Positions 1,837-10,131 of a DNA stretch of 10,131 nt are shown here, in pieces. The notes below the pieces were generated by a model, which was given only the letters and a program-made list of their open reading frames with translations, had not been told where the DNA came from and searched no databases. Numbering within the stretch: the first letter of the stretch is position 1; every line of letters starts with the position of its first letter. This DNA comes from Flavobacteriaceae bacterium (GTDB lineage: Bacteria > Bacteroidota > Bacteroidia > Flavobacteriales > Flavobacteriaceae), in NCBI GenBank assembly GCA_015488935.1, contig WFMU01000327.1:1-10131 (forward strand), given 5' to 3'. The position numbers and the translations under genes were made by a program.

Positions 1837-4800
1837 ATGAAAAAATTAATAACAGTAGCCATGATTGTATTATTTGCAAATGTATTAAATGCCCAAAGTA
1901 ACTATAAAAGTAATTGGGAGAAAGTGCAAAAATTCGATAATGAAGCATTACCAAAATCAGCATTAGCAGAAGTTGAAAATATTTATAGAAAAGCAAAAAT
2001 AGATAATAACGCAGCACAAATAATAAAATGTGTGTTGTATAAATCTAAATATGCATTAATTTTAGAAGAAGATGCACAGTTAAAAATAATAAACGATATA
2101 AAAGCAGAAATTGCAAAGGCAAAAGCACCAGAAAAAAATATGCTCGAAAGTATTTTGGCAAATTTATATTGGCAATATTTTCAGCAAAATAGATATCAGT
2201 TTTACAACCGAACAAATACTGCTAAAAAAGTAGATGCAGAAGATTTTAGAACTTGGGATTTACATACTATTTTTGAAGAAATTGACACGCACCATCAACA
2301 TGCATTACAAGATGCATTAATCTTGCAAAATGCAGATTTATCTCAATTTGATGAGGTATTACACGTACAAAAAGGAGCCAAAAAATTTAGACCAACAGTA
2401 TATGATTTTATTGCCAATAAAGCATTAGATTTTTATAAAACAGGAGAAAGTAATTTGGCACAACCAGCCTATAAATTCGAAATTACTAAAGCAGATTTTT
2501 TAGGAGATAATAAAACATTTATAAAAGCAGGTTTTTCATCGAAAGATACTAAATCTCAAAAATTACAAGCCTTAAAAATATATAAAAACCTTACTTATTT
2601 TCATTTAAAAGATAAAGATAAAACAGCACTTGTCGATTTAACTTTAGGCAGATTAGATTTTGTAAGGCAAAATGCAAGAATTACAGACAAAGAAACCGTT
2701 TATTTAGAAACACTAAAAAAGTTACAAAAAGAGTATAGTAAAAGCTCCATAGTAACAGAAATAGATTACCGAATAGCAATATATTACCAACAAGAAGCAA
2801 ACAAATATGCGGCAAAAAAAGACAAAACCTATCAGTTTAAACTTAGAGATGCCATTGCAGTTTGTGATGCTGCAATAGCAAAATATCCAGAATCAAACGG
2901 TGCAAAAAAATGTCAAAATTTAAAAGCACAAATTGCATTGCCAAATGTAAATATTAAAAACGAAAGATATGTTGAAGTAAACAAAGAAAGTAGGCTGTTA
3001 GTTAGTTATAAGAACACCACAAAACTATATTTTAAAGTATATAAAATAACACCACATTTTGAAGAAGAAATAGATAAAATATACGAATACCAAAAGAAAT
3101 TAACAAGAATAAAACAACTGCAAAAGGTTGCAGATTTTAGCAATACACTAAAAACAGAAAACGATTACCAATTGCATACCACAGAAATTATATTTCCGAA
3201 ATTAAAACAAGGAGAATATCTAATTTTGGCATCTTCGGATATGAATTTCAATGATAAAAATGATTATGCATATAGTTTTATACAAGCAACAGATATTGCT
3301 TTAGTAGAAGAAAATGCAGATCGTAGTTATCGCTATCAAATTGTAAATAGATTTACAGGAAAACCATTACAAGGAGCAAACGTACATATTAAAAATTACA
3401 AAGTAAATAATTACAATAAAGCAATTGATAAAACTTTGGTTACAGATGCAAATGGCTATGTTGCATTAACGTCTAATTACCATCATAATTTAGTAGAAAT
3501 AACGGTAAATTATAAAGATAGTAAAGGTGTTTTTAGATATTTTAAAATAAATAAAAAAGATTTTAGAAATAAAGATAGTCACAATTTTAAAAACAATAGC
3601 ATTTTTGTATTTACCGATAGAAGTATTTACAGACCATCGCAAACAGTGTATTTTAAAGGAATTGCTATTGAAATGAGAGAAAATAAATCGGTAGTAATAC
3701 CAGACAGAAGTGTCTTGGTAACACTAAAAGATGTAAACCAGCAAGATGTAAAAACATTAGAATTAAAAACCAATGAATTTGGTTCGTTTAGTGGCGAATT
3801 TATATTGCCAAAAAACGGTTTAACAGGTCGCTACGAAATAGAAATACACGGTGTAGAAAGTTTTATGAATAAAATACCTTTTATGGGTAAAGAAGGTGTT
3901 TATGGCAATTCAGGATTTTGGGTAGAAGAATACAAACGACCAAAATTTTCTGCAAAATTTAATCCTGTTAAAGAAACATTTAAACTCAATGATAGTGTAA
4001 AAATAAAAGGTACGGCTCTCGCTTACGCTGGAAGTAATATTACCGATGCAAAAGTGGTATATCGTGTAAAAAGAAACGTACAATATCCAAGATGGTGGTA
4101 TTGGTATAAACCTTATGGATTTAATTCCGAAGCACAAGAAATAACACATGGCGAAACAAAAACAGATGCTAATGGAATTTTTGAAATTACCTTTGTAGCT
4201 CAGCCAGACTTAAGTGTAAATAAAAAAGATTTGCCTGTTTTTAATTATGAAATTATAGCAGATATAACCGATATTAATGGCGAAACTAGAAGTACATCTA
4301 CCATTGTTCATGTAGGATATCACTCGCAAAAAATAGATATTTCGGTAGCCAATAAACTAGATAAAACTAAAAAAGATAATAAAATAACACTAAATAGTAA
4401 AAATCTAAATGGCGAATTTGTAGCAGCAAAAGGCATATTGAAAATATACAAAATAAAAGCACCAAAGTTTGTACTTCGCAATCGTTCGTGGGCAGCACCA
4501 GACTATCAAGAAATACCACAAACCACATTTGAGCAATTATTTCCACACGATGTGTATATCACAAATACCAAAGAAGAAGAAAAAGGAGAAATGGTATTTA
4601 CAGCAAAATTTGATACCTCAAAAAATAAAGAAGTAACCTTAAAGAAAATGAAATCGTGGCTTTCTGGAAGTTATGTTGCTATTGTAGAGAGTAAAGATAA
4701 ATTTGGACAAGAAATTACAGATAAACAACGATTTACCATAGCAAGTGATAACGATAAAAAAGTTGCGGATAAGCAATTGTTTGATATTACACTAGACAAA

Positions 4801-7800
4801 GAAGATTATAAAGTAGGAGAGGATGTTATTGTAAAAGTAGGATCTGCTTCTAGCGATATGACCGTAGTGATAAACGTAGAAAAGGAAGATAAAATTGTAG
4901 CAACCAAAATCGTACACTTAAACAATGAAATAAAAACGGTAAAAATTCCTGTAAACGAAAAAGATTTAGGAGGATTTGGAGTAGCATATCATTTGGTAAA
5001 TTACAATTCCTTTTTAAGCGGTATGCTAAATATAAGCGTACCATATCCAAAAATGGATTTAGAAATTGAGACACTTACCTTTAGAGATAAAATACAACCA
5101 GCATCGCAAGAAACATGGAGTTTTAAGGTAAAAGGATGTAAAAAAGATAAAGTAGTTGCAGAGTTATTAACTAGTATGTACGATGCAAGTTTAGACCAAT
5201 TTAAACCACATAATTGGCAATTTCAACCAATTTACCATAAAGGCTATTATCCATCATCCATGGCAAATGCAGGACGAAGTTTTGGAGTAAACAACTTTAG
5301 AATGTACCAAAAAGGACCAAAATATGTAAATATAACCTATCAGGCTTATGAAGATTTAAATTGGTTTGGATTGCATTTTGGTTATGGTAGAAGATTTGGA
5401 TATATGGCAGAACCAATGTTGGCAGAAGCTAAAGGATTGCGAATAAGAGGAAAACGTAGGAAGATAGCTAAAAAACTAAAACGAATGAATAGATCTGCAC
5501 AACAAGAAATGGCGGCGGTTGCAAAAGCTGAAATGGATGAAGTTGTTGTGACAGAAAATCAAGGTTTTATTGCACAAAATACCAATGGAAATGATACTGG
5601 CGGAAACGACACAGATAAAAAAGAAGAAGACTTTAGTAATGTTAAGATAAGAACCAACTTTAACGAAACGGCATTTTTCTATCCACAACTAAAAACCGAT
5701 GCCCAAGGCAATGTCAGTTTTAGTTTTACTGCGCCAGAGAGTTTAACCAAATGGAAAATGCAATTATTGGCACATACCAAAGACTTACATTCGGCAATAA
5801 AAACCTTAGAAACCATTACTCAAAAAGAATTGATGGTACTGCCAAACGCACCGCGATTTTTACGTCAAGGTGATGAAATAATACTAAGTAGTAAAATAGC
5901 AAATCTAACTGCAAAAACGTTAAATGGAAGTGCACAATTAGAACTTGTAGATGCCATTACCAATAAAACCATCGATATAGATTTAGGAAATGAGGTAAAA
6001 ACAAAAACATTTCGTGTTGATGCCAACGGCAACACCAATGTATCGTGGACATTGCATATACCAGAAAACATCCAAGCAGTACAATATAAAATAGTAGCCA
6101 AAGCAGGAAACTATTCCGATGGCGAACAAAGCGTACTACCAGTGCTTACCAATAGAATGTTGGTAACCGAAACACTACCTATGTGGATACGAAGTAATCA
6201 AACAAAAACATTTACCTTAGATAAGTTAAAGACCAATAGTTCGAGTACCTTAAAAAATCACAAATTAACTTTAGAGATAACCTCCAATCCAGCATGGTAC
6301 GCTGTACAAGCCTTACCATACTTAATGGAATATCCGTATGATTGTGCAGAGCAAACCTTCTCAAAATACTATGCAAATACATTGGCTTCGCATATTGCCA
6401 ATTCCAGTCCACGAATACAAGAAGTATTTAAACAATGGAAAAATAGCGATGCTTTGTTGAGTAATTTAGAGAAAAATCAAGAATTAAAATCACTAATAAT
6501 ACAAGAAACACCATGGCTTAGAGATGCACAATCCGAAACCGAACAAAAGAAACGAATCGCTTTACTATTCGATTTAAATAAAATGCAAAACGAGCAAGAT
6601 GCAGCCATCAAGAAATTAAAACAAATGCAAATGGCAAGTGGTGGATTTCCATGGTTTAAAGGAAATAGATATGAAAACCGATACATTACACAACATATTG
6701 TAGCAGGATTTGGACATTTGGATAAATTAGGAGTGTATGAAAAGCAAGGCACAAGAAGTAAGATGCAAGAAATGACAAGCCGAGCAGTTTCTTATTTAGA
6801 TACACAAATTTTAAAAGATTATAATAAACTTCTAGAAAATGCAAGAAAAATATTTGCCAATGATACAGATAAGGAGCAAAAAATTAAAGACTATTTAAAG
6901 CAAAATCACACAAGTCATTTTCAAGTACATTACCTATATGCACGATCTTTTTACAAAGGACAAAAAGTACCAAAAAAGGTAAAAGTAGCATTAGATTATT
7001 ATACCAATCAGAGTTATACTTATTGGAAAGATTACAACTTGTACAGCAAAGGATTAATAGCCTTAATAGCACATAGAAATGATAATAGTACGGTTGCAAA
7101 CAAGGTGTTAAAATCATTAAAAGAAAATGCCATTACAAGCGAAGAATTAGGTATGTACTGGAAATCCAACACAAGTAGTTGGTTTTGGTATCAAGCACCA
7201 ATAGAAACACAAGCCTTATTAATAGAAGCTTTTTCGGAAATAGAAAACGATATAAAAACGGTAGATAATCTAAAAATATGGTTACTTAAAAACAAGCAAA
7301 CCAATCGATGGAAAACAACCAAAGCAACTACCGAAGCAGTATATGCATTATTATTGCAAGGAACAGACTGGATAAAAACAACAGAATTTGTAGAAGTAAC
7401 GGTAGGTAAAAAAACCATAAATCCATTAGCATTAGAAGAAACAAAAGTAGAAGCAGGAACAGGATATTACAAAACGAGCTGGACTGGAAATGAAATTACG
7501 CCACAACAAGCAACAGTAACCATAAAAAAACAAGGAAAAGGAATTGCTTGGGGTGCAATGTACTGGCAATATTTTGAAGATTTAGATAAAATAACAAGTG
7601 CAGAAACACCATTAAAACTAAAGAAAAAATTATTCCTAAAAACAAATACCGACAGAGGAGAGCAATTAACAGAAATTACAGGCAAAACAAAATTAGAATT
7701 AGGTAATTTAGTACGAGTACGTATTGAGTTGCGTGTAGATAGAGTCATGGAATTTGTACACATGAAAGACATGCGAGCGGCAGGATTTGAACCAATAAAC

Positions 7801-8028
7801 GTACTATCGCGTTACAAATGGCAAGATGGTTTAGGGTATTACGAAAGTACCAAAGATGCAAGTACCAACTTTTTCTTTGATAGATTGTCAAAAGGAGTTT
7901 ATGTGTTTGAATATGATTTACGAGTAAGCAATCAAGGAGATTTCTCTAATGGAATTACAAGCATACAATCGATGTACGCACCAGAATTTTCTAGTCATAG
8001 CAATGGAGTGCGTGTAAAGGTAAAGTAA
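1837..8028 (+). CDS. Secreted alpha-2-macroglobulin family protein with intact thioester motif
   Basis: This 2063-residue protein belongs to the bacterial alpha-2-macroglobulins, which trap attacking proteases by bait-region cleavage and thioester coupling (family knowledge). Residues 1-20 form a signal peptide (MKKL, hydrophobic core, then LNA-Q). There is no lipobox cysteine, so it is probably soluble in the periplasm, unlike lipoprotein homologues such as E. coli YfhM. Residues about 25-365 are helical and charged. Macroglobulin-type beta domains start near 367. An MG2-like segment FTDRSIYRPSQTVYFKG lies near 591 and WVEEYKRPKFSAKF near 695. A flexible basic, then Asn/Asp-rich stretch occupies about 1202-1272, just before the A2M domain (FNETAFFYPQL near 1275). 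The thioester motif is Cys1503-Ala-Glu-Gln1506 (context PYDCAEQTF), followed by a helical thioester domain with GGFPWFKG near 1602. The C-terminal part is a receptor-binding-like beta domain. It is longer than proteobacterial homologues (about 1650) but usual for Bacteroidota. The ATG at 1837 is set by the signal peptide. Confidence 0.93.
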   Translation: MKKLITVAMIVLFANVLNAQSNYKSNWEKVQKFDNEALPKSALAEVENIYRKAKIDNNAAQIIKCVLYKSKYALILEEDAQLKIINDIKAEIAKAKAPEKNMLESILANLYWQYFQQNRYQFYNRTNTAKKVDAEDFRTWDLHTIFEEIDTHHQHALQDALILQNADLSQFDEVLHVQKGAKKFRPTVYDFIANKALDFYKTGESNLAQPAYKFEITKADFLGDNKTFIKAGFSSKDTKSQKLQALKIYKNLTYFHLKDKDKTALVDLTLGRLDFVRQNARITDKETVYLETLKKLQKEYSKSSIVTEIDYRIAIYYQQEANKYAAKKDKTYQFKLRDAIAVCDAAIAKYPESNGAKKCQNLKAQIALPNVNIKNERYVEVNKESRLLVSYKNTTKLYFKVYKITPHFEEEIDKIYEYQKKLTRIKQLQKVADFSNTLKTENDYQLHTTEIIFPKLKQGEYLILASSDMNFNDKNDYAYSFIQATDIALVEENADRSYRYQIVNRFTGKPLQGANVHIKNYKVNNYNKAIDKTLVTDANGYVALTSNYHHNLVEITVNYKDSKGVFRYFKINKKDFRNKDSHNFKNNSIFVFTDRSIYRPSQTVYFKGIAIEMRENKSVVIPDRSVLVTLKDVNQQDVKTLELKTNEFGSFSGEFILPKNGLTGRYEIEIHGVESFMNKIPFMGKEGVYGNSGFWVEEYKRPKFSAKFNPVKETFKLNDSVKIKGTALAYAGSNITDAKVVYRVKRNVQYPRWWYWYKPYGFNSEAQEITHGETKTDANGIFEITFVAQPDLSVNKKDLPVFNYEIIADITDINGETRSTSTIVHVGYHSQKIDISVANKLDKTKKDNKITLNSKNLNGEFVAAKGILKIYKIKAPKFVLRNRSWAAPDYQEIPQTTFEQLFPHDVYITNTKEEEKGEMVFTAKFDTSKNKEVTLKKMKSWLSGSYVAIVESKDKFGQEITDKQRFTIASDNDKKVADKQLFDITLDKEDYKVGEDVIVKVGSASSDMTVVINVEKEDKIVATKIVHLNNEIKTVKIPVNEKDLGGFGVAYHLVNYNSFLSGMLNISVPYPKMDLEIETLTFRDKIQPASQETWSFKVKGCKKDKVVAELLTSMYDASLDQFKPHNWQFQPIYHKGYYPSSMANAGRSFGVNNFRMYQKGPKYVNITYQAYEDLNWFGLHFGYGRRFGYMAEPMLAEAKGLRIRGKRRKIAKKLKRMNRSAQQEMAAVAKAEMDEVVVTENQGFIAQNTNGNDTGGNDTDKKEEDFSNVKIRTNFNETAFFYPQLKTDAQGNVSFSFTAPESLTKWKMQLLAHTKDLHSAIKTLETITQKELMVLPNAPRFLRQGDEIILSSKIANLTAKTLNGSAQLELVDAITNKTIDIDLGNEVKTKTFRVDANGNTNVSWTLHIPENIQAVQYKIVAKAGNYSDGEQSVLPVLTNRMLVTETLPMWIRSNQTKTFTLDKLKTNSSSTLKNHKLTLEITSNPAWYAVQALPYLMEYPYDCAEQTFSKYYANTLASHIANSSPRIQEVFKQWKNSDALLSNLEKNQELKSLIIQETPWLRDAQSETEQKKRIALLFDLNKMQNEQDAAIKKLKQMQMASGGFPWFKGNRYENRYITQHIVAGFGHLDKLGVYEKQGTRSKMQEMTSRAVSYLDTQILKDYNKLLENARKIFANDTDKEQKIKDYLKQNHTSHFQVHYLYARSFYKGQKVPKKVKVALDYYTNQSYTYWKDYNLYSKGLIALIAHRNDNSTVANKVLKSLKENAITSEELGMYWKSNTSSWFWYQAPIETQALLIEAFSEIENDIKTVDNLKIWLLKNKQTNRWKTTKATTEAVYALLLQGTDWIKTTEFVEVTVGKKTINPLALEETKVEAGTGYYKTSWTGNEITPQQATVTIKKQGKGIAWGAMYWQYFEDLDKITSAETPLKLKKKLFLKTNTDRGEQLTEITGKTKLELGNLVRVRIELRVDRVMEFVHMKDMRAAGFEPINVLSRYKWQDGLGYYESTKDASTNFFFDRLSKGVYVFEYDLRVSNQGDFSNGITSIQSMYAPEFSSHSNGVRVKVK

Positions 8029-8037
8029 GAAAGAAAA

Positions 8038-8082
8038 ATTCAGGGTTTCACTTTCCCGAAGTCTCGGAGTGAATCCTTGACT
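8038..8082. repeat. Palindromic element, copy 1 (long-loop variant)
   Basis: Nine bases after the alpha-2-macroglobulin stop, arms ATTCAGGGTTTCACT (8038-8052) and AGTGAATCCTTGACT (8068-8082) are complementary at 12 of 15 positions. The usual 3-bp spacer is replaced by 15 bases that hold a nested hairpin, CCCGAAGTCTCGG. It could protect or end the upstream mRNA, but no U-run follows, so it is not a canonical terminator. Confidence 0.7.
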
Positions 8083-8156
8083 AATTATCGTTTAGCCATA
8101 ACTCTCTCAAAACTTCAGGAAAATGAAGTACCAACTTATTAAATTCTGAAAATGTT

Positions 8157-8189
8157 ATTCACACAGTGACTTGGAGTTATGGTGTGAAT
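8157..8189 (-). repeat. Palindromic element, copy 2 (diverged, probably reverse orientation)
   Basis: Arms ATTCACACAGTGACT (8157-8171) and AGTTATGGTGTGAAT (8175-8189) flank TGG, giving the same 15-3-15 architecture as the other copies. Read on the minus strand the core is ACT-CCA-AGT, as in the coding copies. The outer 8 bp pair perfectly; the inner part has several mismatches, and the arm sequence differs from the rest of the family. Confidence 0.5.
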
Positions 8190-8191
8190 TT

Positions 8192-8224
8192 CGTTAGGGT
8201 TTCACTCTAAGTGAAACCCTCTCT
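8192..8224. repeat. Palindromic element, copy 3 (perfect inner arms)
   Basis: AGGGTTTCACT (8196-8206) and AGTGAAACCCT (8210-8220) are perfect inverted repeats around CTA. The four outer bases on each side complete the 33-bp frame but pair poorly. The element lies three bases after copy 2 and directly before the FG-GAP-like gene remnant, so it marks that remnant's left edge. No U-run follows. Confidence 0.8.
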
Positions 8225-8226
8225 AA

Positions 8227-8445
8227 AATAAAAAAGTTACAACACTCTTGTTTCTGTACCAAGATCCTGCTCCTTTTGTTCCTATTACTTTTATGGGAGA
8301 TATCGATGGAGACAAAAAAATGGGTTTAATCATTAATTCAAGTAATCATTTTAGTTTAACAAGGCAAGTTTTATTTTTAACAAAACCAGTTAATCCGAAT
8401 GAAAATGTAAAGACAATAGGTAAATTTGATAAGTATTGTTGTTAA
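8227..8445 (+). pseudogene. 3' remnant of an FG-GAP/VCBS-like protein gene
   Basis: This open frame follows the palindrome at 8192-8224 and has no ATG near its start; only a TTG at 8248 could initiate. Its translation contains FMGDIDGDKKMGLIINSSNH and then VLFLTKP, ending in KYCC. The pattern resembles the C-terminal end of FG-GAP/VCBS-repeat proteins, whose usual motif is DxDGDGxxDxI. Here the second glycine and the last aspartate of that motif are replaced (DGDKKMG), consistent with loss of the calcium-binding loop and with decay. The upstream part of such a gene is absent. The last 74 bp, including the stop, are duplicated at 8544-8617. It may instead be a short expressed protein, but no promoter or start supports this. 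Confidence 0.55.
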
Positions 8446-8455
8446 TAGCCATTTT
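8372..8455 (+). repeat. Direct repeat of the FG-GAP-like tail, copy A
   Basis: Positions 8382-8455 match 8544-8617 with one difference (T8439/C8601, a silent TGT/TGC cysteine change). Including the flanking TATTTTTA block, the repeat runs 8372-8455 against 8534-8617 with three differences in 84 bp. The copies lie 162 bp apart, measured start to start. Confidence 0.9.
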
Positions 8456-8460
8456 ATATT

Positions 8461-8530
8461 TTGGTGAAAGAAACGGAATTACTTATAGATAATGAGGGTT
8501 TCACTCCAAGTGAAGCCCTCACTAAAAAAA
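8461..8530 (+). pseudogene. Fragment of a RAYT transposase gene
   Basis: This stretch aligns base for base with 8922-8991 of the intact transposase gene. It has seven mismatches in the first 38 bases and then near identity through the palindrome and A-run. It reads LVKETELLIDNEGFTPSE against LVRETELPINSEGFTPSE in the intact copy. No other part of a transposase is present on either side, so this is an isolated piece covering the region just after the HUH motif. The divergence left of the palindrome suggests it came from another RAYT copy in the genome rather than from the neighbour. Confidence 0.75.
8491..8523 (+). repeat. Palindromic element, copy 4 (inside the RAYT fragment)
   Basis: Arms AATGAGGGTTTCACT (8491-8505) and AGTGAAGCCCTCACT (8509-8523) flank CCA, with two mismatches. 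From 8493 onward the sequence is identical to the coding copy at 8952-8984. It sits in the same phase relative to the RAYT reading frame. Confidence 0.85.
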
Positions 8531-8533
8531 AAA

Positions 8534-8617
8534 TATTTTTATTAAAACCAGTTAATCCGAATGAAAATGTAAAGACAATAGGTAAATTTGATAAGTATTG
8601 CTGTTAATAGCCATTTT
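8534..8617 (+). repeat. Direct repeat of the FG-GAP-like tail, copy B
   Basis: This is the second copy of the 3' end of the decayed FG-GAP-like gene, including its stop codon (TAA 8605-8607). The RAYT fragment lies between copies A and B. The sequence after the repeat runs straight into the promoter candidate of the transposase-helicase gene. Confidence 0.9.
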
Positions 8618-8621
8618 CAAC

Positions 8622-8653
8622 TTTGTTTCTAAAATAGAAAATAACTACATTTG
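8622..8653 (+). promoter_or_regulatory. Candidate promoter of the transposase-helicase gene
   Basis: TTTG (8622-8625) and TACATTTG (8646-8653) are 20 bp apart and match both boxes of the Bacteroidota consensus TTTG-N19-21-TAnnTTTG. A start near 8660 would give a leader of about 65 nt. It lies just downstream of tail copy B and upstream of the first ATG. It is the best promoter match in the window, but expression is not shown. Confidence 0.65.
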
Positions 8654-8723
8654 TGTTTATTAGATTCAATATTAACTATGAAAAACAAATAATCCAACTC
8701 GTACCGTAACTTAAACCTACGAT

Positions 8724-10131
8724 ATGAACAAAAAAACTAAAAAAATGCAATTTGAAAAAAGCTATTTATATCACATTTACAATCAAGGTAACAACCAAAG
8801 AAAAGTTTTCTTTCATAGAGAGAATTATCTTTTCTTTTTAGAAAAAATAAAAATACATATTTCCCCTTTTGCGGATATTATTGCTTGGTGCTTGATGCCG
8901 AACCATTTTCATTTAATGGTGCTGGTGAGAGAAACAGAATTACCAATAAATAGTGAGGGTTTCACTCCAAGTGAAGCCCTCACTAAAAAAACGATTAACG
9001 ATAGCATAGGTATAATTTTACGATCTTACACAAGAGCTATTAACAAACAAGAGAATACCACAGGTTCCTTATTTAGGAAAAAAACAAAAGCAGCATGTAT
9101 TAATTGTCCTAAATTAACCAAAATACCTTCTTGGGTTTTAAGTGAAACCACAACGACACACTTCTCCGAAAAACAATATCCGCAAGTATGTTTTGATTAC
9201 ATACATCAAAATCCAGTAAAAGCTGGATTGGTTAAAAATGAGGAAGATTATGAATTTTCTTCTGCGAAAAATTATGCTGGTTTGGAAAAGGATAGTCTTG
9301 TAAATAAAAATATTGCATTGGAATATATTGATTATCAGAATAGTCAGGATTTCACTCCAAGTAAAACTCTGACTTCGAATCATCGTATCACTAGAGCAAG
9401 TAAAAACACAACAATGAATCCAGAACTCGAATTAGCCTTAAATTTTGTAGAAAAAACCGATAGAAATATTTTTCTAACAGGAAAAGCAGGTACAGGAAAA
9501 ACAACATTCTTACATCAAATAAAAAAAGAATCTTTAAAACGATTGGTGGTAGTTGCACCAACTGGTGTTGCTGCCATTAATGCAAAAGGTGTTACCATAC
9601 ACTCTTTTTTTCAGATGCCATTTGGCCCAATTATTCCTGGTGTAGCAGCAAAAAAATCAAAATTCAAGTTTGGAAAAGCTAAAATTGATATTATTCGCTC
9701 TTTAGATTTATTAATTATCGATGAAATTTCTATGGTTCGTGCCGATTTACTCGATGGTATCGACCAAGTTCTTAGACGCTACAAAAATAGAACTAAAGTT
9801 TTTGGTGGCGTACAAGTATTAATGATTGGCGATTTACAACAACTCTCTCCTGTAGTAAAACCATACGAATGGGAATTGCTAAAACCACATTACGAAACGG
9901 CCTTCTTTTTTAGTAGTCATGCATTTCAACAAGCAAACGCCGTTAATATTGAACTCAAACATATTTACAGACAAGATAATGCTGTATTTATTACTATACT
10001 AAATGAAATTAGAAACAATAATTTATCTGCAGCATCCGCCGCTATTTTAAACGAACGATACCAACCAAATTTTGAACCAAAAAAAGAAGATGGTTACATT
10101 ACATTAACCACACATAATAATAGAGCAAATA
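8724..10131 (+). CDS. RAYT (Y1/HUH transposase) fused in frame to a PIF1-like DNA helicase, 3' partial
   Basis: The frame is open from ATG 8724 to the window end (469 codons, no stop). Residues 8-205 are a complete REP-associated tyrosine transposase of the IS200-like Y1 superfamily. It starts MQFEKSYLYHIYNQGNN, has the HUH motif His61-Phe-His63 in MPNHFHLMV, and the probable catalytic Tyr159 in DYIHQNPVKAGLV. Such proteins nick and join single-stranded DNA at REP palindromes (family knowledge). Residues 77-87 and 207-217 are encoded by 33-bp palindromes. From Met231 (ATG 9414) a superfamily 1B helicase of the PIF1/RecD2 group follows. It shows Walker A GKAGTGKT (253-260, Lys259), motif Ia APTGVAA (278-284), Walker B DE (333-334) and motif III GDLQQLSP (369-376). 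The C-terminal helicase domain lies outside the window. Start may be ATG 8724 or 8745; the latter fits the usual RAYT N-terminus. Translation as one chain, or restart at 9414, cannot be told from sequence. Confidence 0.88.
   Translation, partial: MNKKTKKMQFEKSYLYHIYNQGNNQRKVFFHRENYLFFLEKIKIHISPFADIIAWCLMPNHFHLMVLVRETELPINSEGFTPSEALTKKTINDSIGIILRSYTRAINKQENTTGSLFRKKTKAACINCPKLTKIPSWVLSETTTTHFSEKQYPQVCFDYIHQNPVKAGLVKNEEDYEFSSAKNYAGLEKDSLVNKNIALEYIDYQNSQDFTPSKTLTSNHRITRASKNTTMNPELELALNFVEKTDRNIFLTGKAGTGKTTFLHQIKKESLKRLVVVAPTGVAAINAKGVTIHSFFQMPFGPIIPGVAAKKSKFKFGKAKIDIIRSLDLLIIDEISMVRADLLDGIDQVLRRYKNRTKVFGGVQVLMIGDLQQLSPVVKPYEWELLKPHYETAFFFSSHAFQQANAVNIELKHIYRQDNAVFITILNEIRNNNLSAASAAILNERYQPNFEPKKEDGYITLTTHNNRAN
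8952..8984 (+). repeat. Coding palindromic element, copy 5 (inside the transposase)
   Basis: Arms AGTGAGGGTTTCACT (8952-8966) and AGTGAAGCCCTCACT (8970-8984) flank CCA, with a single mismatch. The element is exactly 11 codons and starts on a codon boundary, encoding SEGFTPSEALT at residues 77-87. It sits in the loop after the HUH strand, where RAYTs vary in length and tolerate insertions. Confidence 0.92.
9342..9374 (+). repeat. Coding palindromic element, copy 6 (transposase/helicase junction)
   Basis: Arms AGTCAGGATTTCACT (9342-9356) and AGTAAAACTCTGACT (9360-9374) flank CCA, with three mismatches. It is again 11 codons in the same phase as copy 5, encoding SQDFTPSKTLT at residues 207-217. 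It lies where a RAYT would normally end, 39 bp before the helicase Met codon at 9414. Confidence 0.88.
9414..10131 (+). other. PIF1-like helicase part, with possible internal start at ATG 9414
   Basis: This part begins MNPELELALNFVEKTDRNIF, which by itself looks like the natural N-terminus of the stand-alone Bacteroidota PIF1-like helicase, directly before the Walker A motif. It could therefore be translated independently from 9414. The bases before this ATG are A-rich (TAAAAACACAACA), which suits initiation in this phylum. No TAnnTTTG box with a properly spaced -33 box was seen just upstream. If expressed, it would share the transposase transcript. It is listed separately from the fused gene because the real start is undecided. 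Confidence 0.6.

Follow-up and report, generated by a model that had tools for sequence, protein, structure and literature searches.

A RAYT transposase joined in one reading frame to a PIF1-family helicase in Flavobacteriaceae

REP-associated tyrosine transposases (RAYTs, also TnpAREP) are commonly regarded as domesticated enzymes that stand alone and whose benefit to the host is unclear. The locus described here raises the question of whether such a transposase can become part of a host gene, and by what route. The stretch of DNA that was analysed (the window, 10,131 nucleotides) spans all of contig G000:C327, from a Flavobacteriaceae genome of 2.5 Mb in 524 contigs. At positions 8724-10130 of the plus strand lies an open frame of 469 codons without a stop, which leaves the contig end still open; it encodes first a RAYT and then a PIF1-family helicase that is truncated by the contig end. 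The original prediction of a single uninterrupted RAYT-helicase frame was borne out by this frame and by the full fusion in another genome of the same genus, G005, where the protein is 1025 aa from its ATG, in an open frame of 1029, on a contig of 68.7 kb. A third genome, G003, also carries the fusion, truncated at its contig end; a TAA flagged in this copy sits ahead of its ATG.

The two halves of the fused frame

The RAYT domain occupies 8745..9329 (+), as judged from the NCBIfam profile, its motifs and the starts of homologues. Translation probably begins at the ATG at 8745, where three close homologues begin, with the in-frame ATG at 8724 as a possible alternative. The HUH motif is encoded at 8904..8912 (+; His61, Phe, His63) and was invariant in both alignments made; the codon of the catalytic Tyr159, in a YIHQNP motif, is at 9198..9200 (+) and was invariant in the fusion alignment. 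The residue numbers originally assigned to the two histidines and the tyrosine are correct on the window translation. The RAYT half scored 46.2 bits against NCBIfam REP_Tyr_transpos (NF047646), under the cut-off of 80, and 14 bits against Y1_Tnp (cut-off 23), a profile that one other fused RAYT, P0117, passes with 25.2. Because the profile score is under the curated cut-off, the RAYT name also rests on the HUH motif, the tyrosine and the REP context. The window RAYT carries the first two as NHFH and YIHQNP (a tyrosine in YxxxNP context); among solo relatives, NHFH was found in 71 of 72 and Y[IVL]HxNP in 66 of 72. As for the third, REP copies lie upstream, a REP hairpin lies inside the gene, and further copies occur elsewhere in the genome. 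The sequence match to PDB 4er8 was weak (E 0.015), and an AlphaFold model of the 1025 aa fusion, made from 16 sequences, had a mean pLDDT of 52 and low confidence in the RAYT part.

The closest described relatives are subclasses 2.4 and 2.6 of the RAYTs, within the Y1 HuH family (PMC6006769); the window RAYT differs from both by its fusion to a host enzyme. With subclass 2.4 (NH[IFV]H, YIxNNP, in-frame REP) it shares NHFH and the REP, but YIHQNP has Q for N; with subclass 2.6 (NH[LIV]H, YIH[QN]NP, SS, Bacteroidetes) it shares YIHQNP, SS and the host, but the middle residue of the HUH motif is F.

The helicase half (9417..10130, +) comprises the N-terminal 238 codons, the remainder lying beyond the contig. 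Membership of the PIF1 family and a Walker A motif had both been proposed, and were confirmed by a score of 97.3 bits against PF05970 (PIF1; cut-off 25.9) and by GKAGTGKTT at 9480..9506 (+), whose aligned residues are invariant among the fusions; the window helicase has both the curated-profile match and the Walker motifs by which this family of SF1B helicases is recognized. An ATG directly ahead of the helicase core (9414..9416, +) is a possible separate start, kept or regained. A full-length relative, P0005, has further helicase motifs, with HRDC and HTH_40 behind the core. The G005 helicase half matched the solved Pif1 structures 8bnv and 5ftb over 420-429 query residues (E 1e-96 to 1e-98), which share its helicase core and are without a RAYT, and also matched Helraiser 7lcc (E 6.8e-14). 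The fused gene was the sole copy of the helicase at E <= 1e-60 in all four fused genomes tested.

Upstream of the RAYT, at 8622..8653 (+), is a weak promoter-like site, TTTG-N20-TAnnTTTG, which we take to be a Bacteroidota-type promoter consensus. Three matches to this pattern were found in the window against 1.38 expected, a number reached in 34 of 200 shuffles. From this site onward to the window end TAnnTTTG is absent on the plus strand, and Rfam gave no match in window 8000-10131.

Distribution and history of the fusion

The helicase was present in 15 of 60 genomes at E <= 1e-60, the window's own genome included. Among six genomes of the same genus, a RAYT lies in frame ahead of the helicase in G000 (the genome of the window), G003 and G005; in G001 and G004 no RAYT stands immediately before the helicase, and G002 gave no helicase at E <= 1e-60. 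Of 397 genomes of the family, 91 have the helicase (E <= 1e-95), and open-frame length marks only G000 and G005 as fused, the remaining helicase frames being 805-870 codons long. When 5.8 billion proteins, restricted to those of about 566 to 1800 aa, were searched with the RAYT part of G005, there were 21 matches, namely 16 RAYT-PIF1 fusions (query included), one of them from a 928 kb contig, and five RAYT-MurF-Alr fusions. It had been suggested that chains with both domains might form a conserved clade, and the RAYTs of the 16 fusions do fall in one clade of the RAYT tree, in which the PIF1 fusions make up 21 rows (SH-aLRT 96). The background of this tree consisted of 53 solo loci, 16 cas1-adjacent loci and the other fusions described below; it omitted L073, L091, L099, L121 and L124 (no Tyr pattern), ORFs under 150 aa, P0022, P0100, the unfused proteins of the search that yielded the FolK fusions, and proteins first found in a third search. 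P0003 is identical to G003, and P0010 is near-identical to L046.

The in-frame state is not merely a product of the search for long proteins, because the adjacent RAYT-helicase pairs at loci located via the RAYT or the helicase alone were in frame in seven of seven cases (G000, G003, G005, L045, L046, L047 and L051). The HUH pair was kept in all 17 PIF1 fusions that contain the region, and the catalytic tyrosine in 18 of 18 (17 by script, P0022 by eye). Over 21 pairs from the seven loci, some of them with high dS, dN/dS was 0.10-0.36 for the RAYT part without the REP and 0.05-0.14 for the helicase part. Both halves look to be under purifying selection, and with the catalytic residues kept this agrees with the original prediction that both are intact. 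The fusion is real and conserved, and is not a product of chance or mis-assembly.

For 18 fusions the RAYT tree and the helicase tree disagree, each rejecting clades of the other. On the RAYT data five of five helicase clades were rejected (p 0.029 to 5e-6), and on the helicase data four of four RAYT clades (p no higher than 2.5e-4); the choice of clades followed inspection of the trees, and the window covers only 31% of the helicase columns. Between G003 and G005 the synonymous distance was 0.65 for an upstream oxidoreductase gene, 0.51 for the RAYT and 1.26 for the helicase. Since the RAYT tracks the oxidoreductase and the helicase, by eye, tracks a downstream SulP gene, ordinary recombination that breaks near the junction suffices, and the halves have probably been re-assorted through such recombination. 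Homing of the RAYT into one site was also considered, and was rejected on the low synonymous distance that RAYT and oxidoreductase share.

Six fused loci have the oxidoreductase upstream, and five of these have SulP downstream; in G005 one gene lies between the fusion and SulP, and the G003 contig stops before SulP. The oxidoreductase was not seen upstream of 38 unfused helicase loci (up to 1500 bases; under 450 in five), and among 10 unfused regions examined, only G004 had the helicase adjacent to SulP. At L048 an oxidoreductase is followed by a RAYT with its stop, an array of three REPs (one a full hairpin, the others truncated) and SulP, with no helicase between them, and the L048 genome gave no helicase at E <= 1e-60; this locus may represent the pre-fusion state or a loss. 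On the helicase tree L025, L026 and L125, which are unfused, sit within the fused helicases, so the history of the helicase includes losses, regains or recombination.

Two further genes of the window are not found at the other fused loci: a Mur-ligase-like gene (310-1665, -; Mpl by eye) and an alpha-2-macroglobulin-like gene of 2063 aa (1837-8028, +; by eye). A distant RAYT-like stretch with 33% identity was noticed at L157 (276-770, -), some 2.8 kb away from the G116 helicase, which is unfused.

REP hairpins inside the RAYT and at the junction

A REP hairpin with a 16 bp stem lies inside the RAYT frame at 8951..8985 (+), where it encodes the peptide around GFTPSEALT; its folding had a z of -7.2, and none of 200 shuffles was as stable. 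The junction linker (9330..9416, +; 29 codons) holds a degenerate REP at 9346-9376; by eye, it also has one half of another palindrome type, known from G005. Neither the internal hairpin nor the degenerate junction REP formed part of the original prediction. In the window the junction hairpin is not significant (z 0.35); its counterpart in G005 is perfect. Both G005 and G003 have a long in-frame REP hairpin within the RAYT and a second that forms the linker to the helicase, and in G005 the two have an identical fold and the same sequence. The internal hairpin of the window is strong but differs in REP type from those of G005 and G003, and the junction copy has decayed. Among the seven fused loci read as DNA, a strong junction hairpin was found in five (weak in the window and L047) and a strong internal hairpin likewise in five (weak in L045 and L051).

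Hairpins also occur at solo RAYTs. A strong hairpin just 3' of the stop was found in 25 of 72, against 3 of 269 in the control, and a strong hairpin within the gene in 32 of 62, against 3 of 62. The linker of the fusions is, or resembles, the REP hairpin often found behind such RAYT genes, and most fusion copies examined have REP sequence in the linker. In the unfused RAYT of G052, an internal REP at the matching place is followed by the stop and, within about 10 bases, by another REP, a layout that we presume to be the starting state of the fusion. PMC6006769 describes in-frame REPs inside RAYT genes for subclass 2.4, and according to the available text of PMC3733652, REPs and Rickettsia RPEs occur in frame inside protein genes. 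In those insertions and in the fusion a palindrome is read as protein; here the palindrome also links a transposase to a host gene.

Linker lengths over 20 fusions (P0003 and P0022 left out) ranged from 15 to 43 aa, with 13 distinct values; the in-frame state of this set is partly built in, since its members were found as long proteins, and only the seven independently located loci are free of this. No Met lies within 8 residues ahead of the helicase core in 16 of the 20, the other four being the window, G005, L051 and P0013. Internal and junction REP types agree in 13 of the 20 (permutation p 0.076), and the idea of concerted REP change inside each gene was dropped on this figure.

At up to 2 mismatches, the window REP type was found at 11 sites in G000, three of them in the window, and elsewhere at 18 sites in G003, two in G005, one in G001 and none in G004; the reversed-pattern control gave 0. 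The REP type of the G003 fusion has 29 sites in G003 and 0 in the unfused same-genus genomes G001 and G004 (reversed-pattern control 0), and the fused G005 has just three sites of its own REP type, two of them inside the fusion gene. REP and RAYT are not matched one to one, because G003 also has window-type REPs and G005 few of its own; G003 additionally holds other, distant RAYTs, and the comparison covers six genomes, a small number. Elsewhere in the window, a 69-base copy (8462-8530; 91% identical) of the RAYT's internal REP and its 5' coding flank sits upstream of the RAYT gene between two 92-base repeats (8372-8463 and 8534-8625). A REP cluster lies behind the alpha-2-macroglobulin-like gene at 8042-8224, with, by eye, a degenerate REP of the type used by G003 and G005 near 8158-8188.

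Other fusion partners and the origin of the fusion

A second search, limited to protein lengths of about 258 to 820 aa, gave 92 matches, among them 38 RAYT-FolK fusions, some from contigs of 5-6 Mb; by protein name, the cultured Draconibacterium orientale is among the carriers. A third added patatin and GNAT partners and a monooxygenase (source name kynurenine 3-monooxygenase). Altogether the RAYT is N-terminal to FolK in 38 proteins, to MurF-Alr in five, to patatin in five, and to GNAT, amidohydrolase and monooxygenase in two each. On the RAYT tree the FolK fusions form a clade of 38 rows (SH-aLRT 99) and the MurF-Alr fusions one of five rows (91, under the 95 mark), and the amidohydrolase, patatin and GNAT rows are on a side branch; the monooxygenase fusions are outside this tree. 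Because the partner groups fall apart on the RAYT tree, fusion arose several times with unrelated partners. It needs no helicase partner, because related RAYTs are joined in this order to enzymes without a known DNA role as well. The FolK fusions have the HUH motif in 38 of 38 and the tyrosine in 36 by script and in P0042 by eye; P0053 has Ser. In the MurF-Alr fusions the first His is changed to Arg in four of five and the Tyr to Phe in two of five, and the frame is still open. That RAYTs normally stand alone, as had been stated at the outset, fits the 75 of 80 related loci that had no match to the tested partners; one of the 75, L094, leaves its contig.

In P0124, P0125 and P0126 the order is reversed, with the RAYT C-terminal behind a ThiD-like kinase or an unknown domain. 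In the RAYT P0025, known from the protein alone, a repeat peptide occurs six times in tandem between the HUH and Tyr motifs. Addiction to an essential gene was considered as a general rule for the fusions. It was weakened by a second FolK in the sole FolK-fused genome tested, and also by the presence of the helicase in just 91 of 397 family genomes (E <= 1e-95). The FolK-fused genome, of Tangfeifania diversioriginum (that of L120), has a stand-alone FolK alongside the RAYT-fused one (L151, L152).

The RAYT-PIF1 fusion had been supposed to be undescribed, and we found no account of it, of other RAYT-helicase fusions or of RAYT-FolK fusions in the open-licence literature searched. PMC6006769, in its available part, mentions a few unexpectedly long proteins that were discarded, coming from gene fusions or annotation errors.

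We favour, at a probability of about 0.6, an origin in which a REP-flanked RAYT was fused by stop loss to a host helicase, in a joining indifferent to the partner, and was kept as an active transposase. A RAYT gene with its own flanking REP hairpins would have lain immediately upstream of a chromosomal gene for a PIF1-family helicase; the RAYT would then have lost its stop codon, turning the REP behind it into an in-frame linker. Stop loss and read-through of the flanking REP make the simplest origin because the fused copies have, by eye, sense codons at the place of the G052 stop. Loss of the helicase start in most descendants would have left one two-domain protein, presumably a single polypeptide. 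On the RAYT tree the fusion to the helicase happened once, and a single group of Flavobacteriaceae has retained it. The RAYT half would most likely still be a REP transposase, cutting single-stranded REP hairpins and rejoining them, and the helicase would keep its host job. Because joining is not specific to helicases, the likely driver may be retention: the fusion would supply the RAYT with a transcript and make it hard to lose. Joining is probably read-through of a RAYT-REP unit into whatever gene comes next, and this origin, with a RAYT that either stays active or does not, is preferred to a dedicated nuclease-helicase machine because the partners are unrelated and the MurF-Alr active site is changing. 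Our preferred origin draws on direct observation of a fused and conserved frame, of motifs that are intact, of dN/dS well under 1, of REP sequence in most of the linkers examined, of REPs dispersed through carrier genomes and of the other partners; the single polypeptide, the stop loss, continued transposase activity and retention as the benefit are inferred. Conserved fusions of RAYTs with a helicase, and with metabolic and cell-wall enzymes, would give a concrete, testable route for locking a transposase into host genes, its own palindrome serving as linker.

The original prediction likened the fusion to known pairings of an HUH nuclease with a helicase. TraI, a relaxase-helicase, has an HUH nuclease and an SF1 helicase in one chain, as the fusion does; unlike the fusion, it is a conjugation enzyme from another HUH branch. 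The Helitron RepHel protein is described in the available text of PMC6213432 as an N-terminal HUH nuclease and a C-terminal PIF1-family helicase in one protein, and Helitrons as eukaryotic rolling-circle transposons with a Y2 nuclease, of debated origin. The likeness lies in a single chain that runs from an HUH domain to a PIF1-family helicase, which makes the fusion a bacterial parallel to the Helitron architecture. The window has one tyrosine (Y1 RAYT by profile) where Helitrons have two, the Y2 nuclease belongs to another HUH group, and the fusion's own substrate would be a REP hairpin; nor was a large mobile unit seen around the fusion, in contrast to Helitrons. The tethered RAYT might nevertheless be served by a helicase that unwinds or feeds it single-stranded REP DNA, as a functional counterpart of RepHel. 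Besides the domain order (PMC6213432), the matches of the G005 helicase half to Pif1 8bnv and 5ftb and to Helraiser 7lcc, the conserved catalytic centres of both halves, the occurrence of the fusion in many assemblies and the dispersed fusion-type REPs of G003 speak for this. We nonetheless consider it rather unlikely, as FolK, MurF-Alr, patatin and others also serve as partners of related RAYTs, the FolK-fused RAYTs likewise retain their catalytic residues, so that conservation is not special to the helicase, and the trees of the two halves differ, though each stays within its own family. The Helitron-like architecture and the single clade thus stand from the original prediction, and the pairing itself as the point of the fusion does not, given the FolK, MurF-Alr and patatin partners. 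Slightly more doubtful is the fuller version, an independently evolved bacterial RepHel in which a Y1 transposase captured a PIF1 helicase that exposes or processes REPs, as one case of a wider welding of REP-bearing RAYTs, through an in-frame REP, to the front of host genes.

If the RAYT were instead an inert N-terminal passenger, its frame would be open only since the downstream helicase needs translation. The MurF-Alr fusions, with altered active sites in a frame that stays open, and the loss of most helicase starts are what such a frozen accident would leave, but the PIF1 fusions keep the HUH pair in 17 of 17 and the tyrosine in 18 of 18, and RAYT dN/dS is well below 1 in 21 of 21 pairs; we regard it as improbable. 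Only a little less so is the possibility that the fused frame is real and the helicase is mostly translated alone, from codons in or after the REP linker. Separate synthesis is possible because in-frame GTG or ATG codons lie at several junctions: ATG 9414 in the window and an ATG in L051, both at the helicase start, an ATG four codons upstream in G005, and linker GTG codons in G003, G005, L045, L046 and L047. Most fusions, however, have no Met close to the helicase core (16 of 20, within 8 residues), and translation from the RAYT start must continue into the helicase, because the seven loci read as DNA have no stop between the halves. The short contig, the fragmented genome and a large alpha-2-macroglobulin-like gene (by eye) that differs from the upstream neighbour in the relatives might point to an assembly artefact or a chimeric contig, but the same junction in independent genomes and on long contigs makes this a negligible prospect.

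Away from the fusions, the RAYT is preceded by a cas9-like gene and followed by a cas1-like gene, all on the RAYT strand (tblastn), at 20 of the 80 related loci: L053, L058, L063, L065, L066, L068, L069, L073-L076, L078, L080, L083, L091, L100, L103, L114, L118 and L124. Type II profiles confirmed the query Cas9 and the Cas1 of L039 and L066. The cas1-adjacent label, carried by 16 rows of the RAYT tree, requires 11 changes, at least three of them forced by starred branches.
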